The notes under the pieces were generated by a model. The model worked only from the letters and a program-made list of their open reading frames with translations. It was not told where the DNA came from and searched no databases. Positions 16,489-47,315 of a stretch of 53,078 bases of DNA are shown here, one piece after another. The stretch spans positions 1 to 53,078 of the forward strand of contig JAIRNG010000015.1 of assembly GCA_031258135.1 (NCBI GenBank). The letters run 5' to 3'. The stretch comes from Mediterranea sp. (in: CFB group bacteria) (lineage in GTDB: Bacteria; Bacteroidota; Bacteroidia; Bacteroidales; Bacteroidaceae). Numbering within the stretch: the first letter of the stretch is position 1; every line of letters starts with the position of its first letter. Both the position numbers and the translations under genes were made by a program.

Positions 16489-16598
16489 CCTACAGCCTCA
16501 CCCCGGCCCTCTCCAAAGGAGAGGGGGAAAGACCATGCGGCATCCTTCCCCCTCTCCTTTGGAGAGGGCCGGGGTGAGGCTGTAGGGGTGAGGCTGTA
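16489..16598. repeat. Inverted pair of the CCTCACCCC/CCCTCTCC palindromic element, possible bidirectional terminator
   Basis: cctacagcctcaccccggccctctccaaaggagaggggga ... tccccctctcctttggagagggccggggtgaggctgtagg; convergent nagB-like/oxyR 3' ends. Confidence 0.85.
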
Positions 16599-30598: not shown

Positions 30599-30652
30599 AA
30601 AAATGAATTTATATTCTATACCCACGAGAATATAACTCTCCAAGCGTTGAAC

Positions 30653-30800
30653 GGCAGGTCTTCTGACTGACTCTCATCCGAAAAGCCTTCCCGGTTTAAA
30701 TCCAGTGGCAAAACAGAGTTTCCGGAATGATAGGAGTTTCACAGCAGCGGGACTGTCCGGGATTCTCACCCGGTTCCCTTTTAATTCGTATCCCCGTACG
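30653..30800 (-). promoter_or_regulatory. Cobalamin (B12) riboswitch
   Basis: Minus strand contains GGGAACCGGGTGAGAATCCCGGACAGTCCCGCTGCTGTGA ... GCCACTGGAT ... GATGAGAGTCAGTCAGAAGACCTGCC (B12 box), followed by the btuFCD-like operon. Confidence 0.93.
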
Positions 30801-30824
30801 GGAATAACAAAACCAATTCGACGG

Positions 30825-30832
30825 CAAAGATA
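30825..30832 (-). promoter_or_regulatory. Bacteroides-type -7 element (TAnnTTTG) upstream of the cobalamin riboswitch
   Basis: Minus strand TATCTTTG about 25 bp before the riboswitch core. Confidence 0.55.
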
Positions 30833-31341: not shown

Positions 31342-31436
31342 ACGTTGACCGGATAATGGTTTGAATGGTCAAAGGTACAACAAATATTTTAATGGTCTGC
31401 GCCGATCCATCAGCTTTCAATTCTCAATTACCTCCT

Positions 31437-31735
31437 CATCAACCGCTGGCGGTAAAACCGCTTTACAAAACGTATCCCCATCAACCGTTGGCGGTAAAAC
31501 CGCTTTACAAAACGCCTCCCCATCAACCGTTGGCGGTAAAACCGCTTTACAAAACACCTCCACAACAGTTGATGACGGTAAAACCGCTTTACAAAACGCA
31601 TCCCCATCAACCGTTGGCGGTAAAACCGCTTTACAAAACACCTCCCCATCAACCGTTGGCGGTAAAACCGCTTTACAAAACACCTCCCCATCAGTTGATG
31701 ACGGTAAAACCGCTTTACAAGACGCCTCCACAGCA
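31437..31735. repeat. 42-bp tandem repeat array, seven copies
   Basis: GGTAAAACCGCTTTACAA starts at 31451, 31493, 31535, 31577, 31619, 31661, 31703 (exact 42-bp period). Confidence 0.97.
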
Positions 31736-41593: not shown

Positions 41594-41870
41594 CGTCCGG
41601 ACGAAAAAAAGTTACAATCCTGCAGGATTTGCGTCATCCGGACGAAAAAAAATGACAATCCTGCAGGATTTGCGTTTTCCGGTTTTGAAAAAGTTACAAT
41701 CCTGCAGGATTTACGCCATCCGGACGAAAAAAAGTTACAATCCTGCAGGATTTGCGTTTTCCGGTTTTAAAAAAGCTCCAATCCTGCAGGATTTATGCCA
41801 TCCGGACGAAAAAAGTTACAACCCTGCAGGATTGGAGCTTTCCCGTTTTGAAAAAGCTCCATGTATGTCG
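41594..41870. repeat. 41-bp tandem repeat array centred on palindrome AATCCTGCAGGATT
   Basis: Palindrome starts at 41616, 41657, 41698, 41739, 41780 and 41820 (one mismatch in the last); linkers alternate between catccggacgaaaaaa and ttttccggttttgaaaa types. Confidence 0.95.
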
Positions 41871-42406: not shown

Positions 42407-43978
42407 ATGAAAAAGGCGCTGATCATCTCCCTGTTAGCCATGGCCACCGGCATATATGCGCAAAAACCGGTTGAAATGTCTTTATGGCCTGACGGAGCGC
42501 CAAACAGCAATGGGCTGGAGGGTGAAGAGCAACAACTGGAGAACGGACGCGTAGCCAACGTGCATGAACCGGCCATTACCGTATTCAGATCCGGCGTCCC
42601 GAACAGCATAGCCATTATTATGTGCCCCGGAGGAGGCTATGTCCGTTTAGCCATGAACCACGAAGGATTCGATATGGCGCCATGGTTTAACGCCCAGCAT
42701 ATCACATACGTCATTCTGAAGTACAGAATGCCCAATGGCCATTATGAAATACCCCTGTCGGATGCCGAACAGGCCATTCGCCTGGTACGCCGGCATGCAA
42801 GTGAGTGGAACGTCGATCCGGACAGGGTGGGCGTCATGGGCGCTTCTGCCGGCGGGCACCTGGCATCCACACTGGCCACTCATTACAGCAGCAGGGAAAC
42901 CCGTCCCGATTTTCAGGTATTGCTCTATCCGGTTATTACTATGGATCCGGGCTATACGCATGCCGGATCACGGGAGAACCTGCTGGGCAAATCACCGTCG
43001 GCCGGATTGGAAAAGAAATTCTCGAATGAGTTACAGGTAACTCCGGAAACCCCGAAAGCATTTATAACGCTCTCTTCCGATGACGGCGCAGTAGCGCCAC
43101 TCAATGGCGTGAACTACTACCTGGCATTGGTCCGGAACAACGTGCGGGCAGCCCTGCATACCTATCCTGTGGGTGGCCATGGCTGGGGATTCCGCGATAA
43201 TTTCCCCTACAAGCGTCAATGGACGGAAGAGTTGGAAAAATGGCTAAGGGAAGAACTGCAGGAAGATAACCTCATGCTGAAATACGGATTAACTCTCCTG
43301 GGAACGCCCTATGTAGCGCATACGCTGGAAAGAACCGCACAGGAAGAACTGTTCACGAGCCGTTCGGAGCTGGACTGCACGACCTTTGTCGAAAGTGTGT
43401 TGGCCATGTCCCTGTGTGCGAAGGAAAACGGAACGTTCTCTGAAGAGAATTTCGCCGGACAACTGCAAAGAATCCGTTATCGCGGAGGCGTTCTCGATGG
43501 ATACGCATCCCGTCTGCATTATGCCACGGACTGGGTCAATGATAATATCAGGAAAGGAGTTATTGAGGATATAACCGCTATACACAGTCAGGACACAGAC
43601 ACCGTCCGGCTGTTCTTCATGTCGGGTCATCCGGACAACTACAAACACCTGAAGAACAATCCGGAAAACATAACCCGGATACTTGAAACGGAAAAGAAAC
43701 TCACCGGACAAAAGATATGCCGGATACCGAAACGGAAATTGCCCGATGAAGGCTTTCCATGGATCAAAGACGGCGACATCGTCATGCTTACCACCGGTAT
43801 CGACGGATTGGACGTAAGTCATATGGGGATCGCCATCCGCCGGAACGGCATGTTGCATTTGCTGCACGCTTCTTCGGCAGAAAAAAAGGTGATTGTAGAC
43901 AAACGGACATTACGCAATCAACTCGCGCAAAGCAAACACGTAACAGGTATCAGGGTTCTGCGGAAATCATTCCTTTAA
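42407..43978 (+). CDS. Bifunctional secreted protein: alpha/beta-hydrolase esterase (BD-FAE-like) fused to DUF1460 amidase-like domain
   Basis: N-terminal IIMCPGGGYVRLAMNHEG, GVMGASAGGHLAS, GGHGWGF; C-terminal GTPYVAHTLE...SELDCTTFVESVLAMSL and SHMGIAIRRNGMLHLLHASS. Confidence 0.85.
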   Translation: MKKALIISLLAMATGIYAQKPVEMSLWPDGAPNSNGLEGEEQQLENGRVANVHEPAITVFRSGVPNSIAIIMCPGGGYVRLAMNHEGFDMAPWFNAQHITYVILKYRMPNGHYEIPLSDAEQAIRLVRRHASEWNVDPDRVGVMGASAGGHLASTLATHYSSRETRPDFQVLLYPVITMDPGYTHAGSRENLLGKSPSAGLEKKFSNELQVTPETPKAFITLSSDDGAVAPLNGVNYYLALVRNNVRAALHTYPVGGHGWGFRDNFPYKRQWTEELEKWLREELQEDNLMLKYGLTLLGTPYVAHTLERTAQEELFTSRSELDCTTFVESVLAMSLCAKENGTFSEENFAGQLQRIRYRGGVLDGYASRLHYATDWVNDNIRKGVIEDITAIHSQDTDTVRLFFMSGHPDNYKHLKNNPENITRILETEKKLTGQKICRIPKRKLPDEGFPWIKDGDIVMLTTGIDGLDVSHMGIAIRRNGMLHLLHASSAEKKVIVDKRTLRNQLAQSKHVTGIRVLRKSFL

Positions 43979-44068: not shown

Positions 44069-44099
44069 TTGTTTATATGATAAAAAGTATCTATCTTTG
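44069..44099 (+). promoter_or_regulatory. Bacteroides-type promoter for the candidate ncRNA
   Basis: TTG at 44069-44071 and TATCTTTG at 44092-44099, spacing about 20 bp. Confidence 0.6.
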
Positions 44100-44105
44100 T
44101 TATAT

Positions 44106-44288
44106 AAAAATTAGCCGCATCGGTTAGATAGGGAAACTCACTAATTAAACTGGAAACCGAGACAAACTTCGTTTCTCAATGGCGGGCCACATCCTTAGGG
44201 ACAGTTTTAAACCGGTGGATTACAAAGAGGACGAGTACTCAAATCATGTCATACGGAGTTTCATCACATCATCGGTGCGGCTTTTTTT
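44106..44288 (+). ncRNA. Candidate stand-alone structured RNA with terminal U-tract
   Basis: Promoter upstream; closing stem AGCCGCA (44113-44119)/TGCGGCT (44276-44282), inner stem GAAACTC (44133-44139)/GAGTTTC (44256-44262), TTAAACTG/CAGTTTTAA, local hairpin AAAC-TTC-GTTT, terminal TTTTTTT; no ORF in this region. Confidence 0.6.
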
Positions 44289-44301
44289 ATTGGAACAACT
44301 C

Positions 44302-44853
44302 TTATTCTCCCAATCGATAGGTAAAGGCTACGCCTAACTTGTACGGCAACCATTCTCCGCTACCGTTCGTATCGACATACATTTCTCCCGTAGATTTCTT
44401 ATAGCCTTTATAGTCGGAGTGTTGCCAGCCGTAGCCGGCGTACATATCCAATCCCCAGCGGTCGCTGATCTTAAGCTGATAACCCAGGGTAGCGCCGAAA
44501 GACATACCCTTGCCTCTCTGGTAATTGTCTTTATTGATATAGTTCCATTTGGTGAATTTGAACATGTGGTGGTATGCACCGTAAGCCCCCACGTAGAAGC
44601 CATTGAATGTTCCCCGGGGATAAAAGCGCCCTTCTGCGATTGCCTGTCCGAATTTCATCGGGTTACCGTCAAGGCTTTCCCATGGGGAATATACCAGGTC
44701 TCCATTGAGTGTCCATTTATCTGCGAGTTTAGTCTCTGCCGACATATTAACCACGCCGGCCGCCCAGTACAGGGCATTCCATTTAAGACGGGTCTGAGCC
44801 TGTATGGATACGGATAGAACCGAAATAGCTAATAACAGTAGTTTTTTCTTCAT
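44302..44853 (-). CDS. DUF3575 domain-containing outer-membrane-like protein
   Basis: Signal peptide; LKWNALYWAAGVVNMSAETKLADKWTLNGDLVYSPW and C-terminal beta strands. Confidence 0.88.
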   Translation of the reverse strand: MKKKLLLLAISVLSVSIQAQTRLKWNALYWAAGVVNMSAETKLADKWTLNGDLVYSPWESLDGNPMKFGQAIAEGRFYPRGTFNGFYVGAYGAYHHMFKFTKWNYINKDNYQRGKGMSFGATLGYQLKISDRWGLDMYAGYGWQHSDYKGYKKSTGEMYVDTNGSGEWLPYKLGVAFTYRLGE

Positions 44854-45017: not shown

Positions 45018-46475
45018 CTATATATTATCCCTCAGGTCTTTCAGCCGGACGGCTTTTCCTTCGCTTTGCGGCAGGGAGCCTTTTTTGACGAGCTTAACCT
45101 TGGGAGTGACTAATATTTCGTCTTTCAGTTGGCGGGTAATGGCTTTATGAAGATTCTCCAACTGAATGTAGTTATCGGTGGAAAGGTCGCTGAGTTCTAC
45201 TTCAACCACCATTTCATCCTGATTGTCGCGCGTGGTGAGTGTGATCAGGTAATTGCTGCCCAGCTCGGGGAATTGCACTAATATCTTTTCTACCTGCATC
45301 GGAAAGATATTCACTCCCTTAATGATGAACATGTCGTCGCTGCGGCCTTTGATCCGGTCGATGCGGATATGCGTGCGTCCGCAGGGACATTCGCCGGGGA
45401 TAATACGGGTAAGGTCGCGGGTGCGGTAGCGAAGAAGGGGCATCATGTCCCTGTCGAGCGTAGTGAGTACCAGCTCTCCGATTTCTCCGTCGGGCACGGG
45501 TTCTTCCGTATCCGGGTCGATGATCTCCACCAGGAAGCAGTCTTCCCAGAGGTGCATGCCGTTTTGCTCTTTACATTCAAAGGCGACGCCGGGGCCGTTC
45601 ATTTCGGACATCCCGAAACTGTTGTACGCTTTCACACCCAGCATCTTTTCGATTTTTTTGCGTTGCTCGTCCGTATGAGGTTCCGCGCCGATGATCAATG
45701 TGGTCAGACCGGCGCTTCGCGGGTCTATGCCTTCTTCCTGGAACACCTCCGCCAAACGGATGGCATAACTGGGAATGGCATGCAGGGCGGTTGTTCCGAA
45801 GTCTGTAATGAACTTGATCTGCCGTTTACTGTTTCCGGCAGCGGCAGGTACGGTGAGCGCACCCAGGCGTTCCGCTCCGTATTGGAATCCGAGCCCTCCG
45901 GTGAACATGCCATAACCGGAACTGTTCTGGAAAACGTCGGTGTTACGAAGTCCCACCATGTACAGGCAACGGGCTACGAGGTTTGCCCAGGAGTCCAGGT
46001 CGTGCTGCGAATGGAAGATAACAGTGGGATTGCCTGTCGTACCACTTGACGAGTGCAGGCGTACGGCATTCTTCAACTCGCCCGAAACCAGTCCGTAAGG
46101 GTAATTGTCGCGCATCTGCGCTTTGGTGGTGAAAGGAATTTTCTTCAGGTCTTCCAACGTCTGTATGGAGTCTGGGGTGATTCCGTTCCCTTCAAATACT
46201 TTTTTGTAGAACGGAGAGTGAGCGGCGATTTCTATTGTCTTTTTCAGCCGCCGGAGTTGTAGCTCCTGTAGCTTCTCACGGCTTGCCGTTTCTATTTCTT
46301 CCCAAAAAGCGCCAACAGCCTCACCCCGACCCTCTCCAAAGGAGAGGGAGGAGGGGGTTACCACAGGCTGTTTGTCATTAAAAGCGCCAACAGCCTCACC
46401 CCGACCCTCTCCAAAGGAGAGGGAGGAGGGAGTTACCACAGGCTGTTTGTCATTTTTGATATACTTGTTACTCAT
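45018..46475 (-). CDS. paaK: Phenylacetate--CoA ligase
   Basis: EIETASREKLQELQLRRLKKTIEIAAHSPFYKKVFEG; LHSSSGTTGNPTVIFHS; NSFGMSEMNGPGVAFEC; N-terminal about 55 aa are repeat-derived. Confidence 0.92.
   Translation of the reverse strand: MSNKYIKNDKQPVVTPSSLSFGEGRGEAVGAFNDKQPVVTPSSLSFGEGRGEAVGAFWEEIETASREKLQELQLRRLKKTIEIAAHSPFYKKVFEGNGITPDSIQTLEDLKKIPFTTKAQMRDNYPYGLVSGELKNAVRLHSSSGTTGNPTVIFHSQHDLDSWANLVARCLYMVGLRNTDVFQNSSGYGMFTGGLGFQYGAERLGALTVPAAAGNSKRQIKFITDFGTTALHAIPSYAIRLAEVFQEEGIDPRSAGLTTLIIGAEPHTDEQRKKIEKMLGVKAYNSFGMSEMNGPGVAFECKEQNGMHLWEDCFLVEIIDPDTEEPVPDGEIGELVLTTLDRDMMPLLRYRTRDLTRIIPGECPCGRTHIRIDRIKGRSDDMFIIKGVNIFPMQVEKILVQFPELGSNYLITLTTRDNQDEMVVEVELSDLSTDNYIQLENLHKAITRQLKDEILVTPKVKLVKKGSLPQSEGKAVRLKDLRDNI
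46306..46455. repeat. 75-bp perfect-frame tandem duplication carrying two palindromic elements, inside the paaK 5' coding region
   Basis: aaagcgccaacagcctcaccccgaccctctccaaaggagagggaggaggg(g/a)gttaccacaggctgtttgtcatt x2, encoding [25 protein letters not shown] twice. Confidence 0.95.
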
Positions 46476-46490
46476 ATCTTTACTTTACAG

Positions 46491-46740
46491 GATTATCTTT
46501 CTTTCAATCTCCCTCTCCTTTGGAGAGGGTTGGGGTGAGGCTATATCTTTCTTTCAATCTCCCTCTCCTTTGGAGAGGGTTGGGGTGAGGCTATATCTTT
46601 CTTTCAATCTCCCTCTTCTTTGGAGAGGGTTGGGGTGAGGCTATATCTTTCTTTCAATCTCCCTCTCCTTTGGAGAGGGTTGGGGTGAGGCTATATCTTT
46701 CTTTCAACCTCCCTCTCCTTTGGAGAGGGTTGGGGTGAGG
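46491..46740. repeat. 50-bp tandem array, five copies, of the palindromic element
   Basis: ctatatctttctttcaatctccctctcctttggagagggttggggtgagg x5; unit ends at 46540, 46590, 46640, 46690, 46740. Confidence 0.97.
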
Positions 46741-47315
46741 CTGTCGGCACTGTGTCTCCTTCCCGCATCCAGCGCTTTGAGGTTCATTTCAACAATGGCT
46801 TCTCCCTTGCGTGCGAATATATCGCGGATACTATCCTGTATCTTCGTATAGTCGATGCCCAGGAAGGGGGTAGTCGCTCCCAGCAGTACGATGTTGGCAA
46901 CGCGGGCCGCACCTGTCTCTCTGGCAATTTTATCTACGTTAAGGATCACTTTCTTCGGCAGTTTGTTTATCTCCGCCATGATGTCGGTCTCAGCGGGATA
47001 GTTGGGGATGTTGATGAACGGGGTTTCGTTTGTCACCAGCCAGCCGTCTTTGCTCAGGTAGGGCAGGTAGCGCAGGCCTTCCATCGGCTCAAGGGAGATG
47101 ATGAGATCGCATTGTCCCGAAGGGATCAGGTCGGATGCAACCGGTTGGTCGCTGATGCGCAGGTTGGACTGTACGTCTCCTCCACGCTGACTCATGCCGT
47201 GTACTTCGGCTTGCTTCATGTATAGCCCGTCTCTGAGGGCGGCTTGTCCGATCACTGTTGCGATGGACAGTATCCCTTGCCCGCCGACGCCTGATAATAT
47301 GATATCTTTTTTCAT
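46704..47315 (-). CDS. iorB: Indolepyruvate ferredoxin oxidoreductase, beta subunit
   Basis: Start MKKDIILSGVGGQGILSIATVIGQAAL; EVHGMSQRGGDVQSNLR; C-terminal [12 protein letters not shown] is repeat-encoded. Confidence 0.92.
   Translation of the reverse strand: MKKDIILSGVGGQGILSIATVIGQAALRDGLYMKQAEVHGMSQRGGDVQSNLRISDQPVASDLIPSGQCDLIISLEPMEGLRYLPYLSKDGWLVTNETPFINIPNYPAETDIMAEINKLPKKVILNVDKIARETGAARVANIVLLGATTPFLGIDYTKIQDSIRDIFARKGEAIVEMNLKALDAGRRHSADSLTPTLSKGEGG

Follow-up and report, generated by a model that had tools for sequence, protein, structure and literature searches.

What is encoded by the non-coding segment at positions 44106-44288 of the 53,078-nt Mediterranea sp. contig analyzed here (the whole of which we call the window)? 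The initial annotation had described it as a stand-alone structured transcript, either 6S-like or Bacteroidales-specific, and had named the Bacteroidales-1 model among those that should be scanned. That is exactly the family to which the segment belongs. The Rfam covariance model RF01693 (Bacteroidales-1) matches 44113-44288 on the plus strand over its full length (model positions 1-179 of 179) with 188.2 bits (E = 3e-33), the curated cut-off of this model being 60 bits. The core features of the family, that is, the terminal stem and the motifs AATGGCGGGCC and GGTGGATTACAAAG, are conserved both in the Rfam alignment and in our alignment of 44 relatives. Rfam describes RF01693 as "6S-Bacteroidales RNA suggested"; hence the RNA is a member of an already known family for which a 6S role has been suggested before. 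A strong Rfam match, as the initial annotation itself had pointed out, makes the RNA known rather than novel. We put the probability that 44113-44288 is a Bacteroidaceae 6S RNA gene of the Bacteroidales-1 type at about 0.9, and both parts of the original guess turned out to be right, given the RF01693 match and the homology with the 6S-Flavo family considered below.

The RF01693 match is unique in the 2.4-Mb assembly, which is about 82% complete. Among 295 sampled genomes of the order, the family was found in at least 79, always in exactly one copy, this count being a lower bound because the filters were strict. Named members retrieved with a DNA pattern derived from the core come from Bacteroides, Phocaeicola, Prevotella, Paraprevotella, Barnesiella, Coprobacter, Dysgonomonas, and other genera. 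The closest fetched relatives of the window RNA, mostly from Bacteroides, are about 80-85% identical to it.

Since the fold of the single sequence is only mildly better than that of shuffled sequences (z = -2.14), the structural case rests on homology and covariation. The 44 relatives were aligned by MAFFT without structural information, and RNAalifold applied to this alignment proposes, unprompted, both outer stems that had been noticed in the sequence. The overall covariation score is 0.417; shuffles reach 0.221, and slid partners do not exceed 0.123. The closing stem P1 pairs 44113-44121 with 44274-44282. It was originally seen as AGCCGCA/TGCGGCT (44113-44119 with 44276-44282), reaches 12 bp in the window sequence, and exceeds shuffles of this sequence alone with p of about 0.008. 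In the 44 relatives, 94.7% of the P1 cells are paired and two-sided compensatory changes occur in all nine tested pairs. The nested stem P2, GAAACTC (44133-44139) with GAGTTTC (44256-44262), is nearly invariant in the same set, with 96.4% of cells paired. Double changes in P2 are seen in 40 distant relatives, in five of seven pairs (97.5% of cells paired), and likewise in nine of nine pairs of P1 (96.4%), though the alignment of these distant relatives was fitted to the model and is therefore biased towards it. In the structure line of RF01693, the first 54 and the last 52 positions are unpaired, so that P1 and P2 extend the Rfam model.

In the consensus structure, a large central bubble separates P2 from the terminal stem. 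Its 5' side (44140-44165) is, judging from other 6S RNAs, the probable template for pRNA synthesis, and its 3' side (44237-44255) carries the highly conserved CTCAAATCnTGT, seen as invariant columns in the alignment of 44 relatives. The invariant GAG and CTC of the bubble may pair with each other. The bubble is followed by the interrupted terminal stem of the Rfam structure (44166-44236), where two-sided changes were found in 11 of 12 and four of four pairs. Support is weaker for the two small local hairpins that Rfam places within this stem, at 44192-44201 and 44204-44212, which have 62-65% of their cells paired in the alignment of 44 relatives. Thus, by RNAalifold and by the pair counts in the 44 relatives, the RNA has the architecture of the functional 6S class: a closing stem, a large central bubble, and a terminal stem.

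A third pairing put forward in the initial annotation, TTAAACTG/CAGTTTTAA, is the one element of that description that had to be dropped; the promoter, both outer stems, the T-tract, and the lack of a plus-strand gene downstream were all borne out. Only 38% of the cells of the third pairing are paired, the same as in shuffles and with slid partners, and in the Rfam model its 3' arm forms part of a small local hairpin.

Part of the RNA is overlapped by an ATG-initiated frame of 52 codons (44179-44337), and a short coding sequence could in principle account for the segment. The frame, however, runs past the T-tract, and the relatives show indels and compensatory changes in the stems rather than codon-like change; with the Rfam E-value of 3e-33 added, a coding function is the least credible explanation of all and can hardly be entertained.

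The RNA is preceded by a promoter of the primary-sigma type of Bacteroidetes at 44069-44099, as had been read from the sequence at the outset: TTG at 44069-44071, a 20-bp spacer, and TATCTTTG at 44092-44099. The latter agrees with TAnnTTTG, given in PMC7366714 as the -7 consensus of the primary sigma factor (sigma-ABfr) in this phylum. The same motif is present at most 70 nt upstream of the RNA in 55 of 70 relatives, versus 3.6 expected from shuffled DNA. The spacing of the promoter suggests that the transcript probably starts near 44106. Its probable end is the T7 tract at 44282-44288, right after the closing stem, and the 3' end of the RNA is T-rich or pyrimidine-rich in most relatives. No classic hairpin terminator was found at the 3' end by a simple scan, because the "loop" is the whole RNA.

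The next gene, encoding a DUF3575 protein (44302-44853, minus strand), is convergent and leaves no gene for the RNA to control in cis. This bears on the possibility that the segment regulates a neighboring gene in cis, as a leader or riboswitch, a matter left open for Bacteroidales-1 by Weinberg et al. 2010 (PMC2864571), whose table has a "?" for cis-regulation. Besides the lack of a downstream gene on the plus strand, the immediate neighbors change among relatives, and the RNA has a promoter, a closing stem, and a T-tract of its own. We therefore reject this explanation as very improbable, in line with the early remark that the segment was not an obvious riboswitch. Conserved synteny with the immediate neighbors is essentially absent: genes for DUF1573 and DUF3575 proteins occur in none of the fetched flanks of relatives, many of which are short. 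The paaK gene is found near the RNA in 13, and iorAB in 10-12, other fetched Bacteroides-group loci, many of them with short flanks only.

Several other features of the window were noted. A tandem array of approximately 41/82-bp units with the palindrome-bearing TACAATCCTGCAGGATTT lies at 41596-41856, between a ysxC-like GTPase gene and the DUF1573 gene, and appears as a spurious repetitive ORF. Two tandem arrays based on CTCTCCTTTGGAGAGGG palindromes (75 bp x2 and 50 bp x5) occupy 46305-46742, one within what looks like the N-terminus of the paaK-like frame, the true start of which is therefore probably downstream, and the other between paaK and iorB; motifs of a similar kind are also present at 16571 and 52971. 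The frame at 42407-43978 is an unusual fusion of an alpha/beta hydrolase (esterase-like) domain with an AmiA-like amidase domain (PF07313). A cobalamin riboswitch (RF00174, 96.6 bits) is located at 30637-30832 on the minus strand, and near it, at 31433-31729, there is a 42-bp tandem repeat in about seven copies with a 126-bp higher-order period.

The 6S reading of Bacteroidales-1 can be compared with a second Rfam family, 6S-Flavo (RF01685), whose own 6S identity is taken from the literature. No Rfam clan is listed for either family. In an all-Rfam scan of 20 distant loci, the matches to RF01693 and RF01685 coincided in position and strand at 13, with RF01685 E-values of 0.0003-0.65; 12 of these 13 loci had been fetched with RF01693 and one with RF01685. 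When the two models were run separately on 198 genomes of the class, the sole RF01693 match of genomes G455 (where 6S-Flavo scores 96.8 bits, above its cut-off) and G315 was found at the 6S-Flavo locus. All seven 6S-Flavo loci of this search are also recovered, in the same position and orientation, by a model, R1, that was made from the Bacteroidales-1 alignment only and includes P1 and P2; six of them have E-values from 3.5e-12 to 6e-6 and the weakest has 2e-4, these values being rough because the calibration was short. R1 matches 29 of the 198 class genomes, versus 14 for RF01693.

In support of this relationship, the 6S-Flavo loci (L190-L196) contain, beyond the limits of the Rfam model, a gapless closing stem of 9-13 bp and then a T-tract. 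Compared with shuffles, the closing stem has p of at most 0.002 in five loci, and 0.02 and 0.05 in the two weakest. The RF01685 model itself starts and stops within the AAACUC/GAGUUU stem, the full RNA being some 20-30 nt longer in each direction. From these sequence comparisons we conclude that Bacteroidales-1 and 6S-Flavo are homologous and form one 6S RNA family, and this homology backs the 6S reading of Bacteroidales-1.

The homology also weighs on the remaining alternative, a Bacteroidales-specific trans-acting small RNA that pairs with mRNAs and resembles 6S in outline only. Such a role would suit the conserved single-stranded stretches, which could pair with targets, as well as the failure of the canonical 6S model RF00013 to match and the cautious Rfam wording, where the 6S role is merely "suggested". 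Against it stand the homology with 6S-Flavo, the preservation of the whole architecture across the class, the single copy per genome, and the 6S RNA with pRNAs that is reported for Bacteroides in PMC7366714. On balance, a trans-acting small RNA is improbable.

For the preferred 6S RNA, the most likely function would be to sequester RNA polymerase until pRNA synthesis frees the enzyme. The approximately 180-nt RNA, probably transcribed by the primary sigma factor, folds into P1, P2, the large conserved central bubble, and the interrupted terminal stem, and thus resembles an open promoter. As growth slows, it most likely fills the active site of the RNA polymerase holoenzyme. In the 6S RNA of E. 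coli, the template for the pRNA is the 5' side of the bubble, read in the direction of the closing stem. By analogy, when nucleotides return, the polymerase would copy 44140-44165, the presumed starting region, and then the AAACUC of P2 into a short pRNA. Ending in GAGUUU, this pRNA would take the place of the 3' strand in P2, so that the polymerase is set free. The near-invariance of P2 fits such a pRNA-driven release.

The gene is thus an ordinary housekeeping gene, which any Rfam annotation would label, and not a new kind of RNA. The by-products of its analysis are a fuller structure with two outer stems and evidence that RF01693 and RF01685 represent one 6S RNA. An extended model would allow annotation of 6S RNA in more Bacteroidia, and P1 and P2 mark the exact stems that may matter for pRNA-driven release in gut Bacteroides. 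We tentatively consider it possible, though somewhat doubtful, that one class-wide 6S family, with the closing and AAACUC/GAGUUU stems absent from both Rfam models, is so far undocumented. Either the structure or the link to 6S-Flavo may have been described before, in a 2022 paper on Bacteroides RNA. The outer stems and the family merger, both worked out here, are modest additions, and both may already be present in Wehner et al. 2014, a study to which PMC7366714 refers for pRNAs predicted in Bacteroidetes.

Among known systems, canonical 6S RNA (RF00013, E. coli ssrS type) shares with the window RNA a length of about 180 nt, the end-to-end closing stem, the large central bubble, and the terminal stem, but its model has no match in this genome at E <= 0.001, control genomes being matched. 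The tie to E. coli 6S is therefore one of architecture and mechanism rather than of sequence-level membership, and the likeness in architecture does not imply common origin. In B. thetaiotaomicron, a 6S RNA and its pRNAs were detected by dRNA-seq, the main text of that report giving no Rfam name for the locus (PMC7366714); the reading of Bacteroidales-1 and 6S-Flavo as one 6S family agrees with these published data. 6S-Flavo shares with Bacteroidales-1 common loci in intermediate lineages, the AAACUC/GAGUUU ends, and the closing stem with the T-tract, but the RF01685 model matches neither the window RNA nor any other place in this genome, and the link between them runs via intermediate genomes. 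Finally, Bacteroidales-1 has the same interior stems and conserved bubble sequences as the window RNA; there is no difference in the RNA itself, only in its Rfam structure, which is drawn without the two outer stems.
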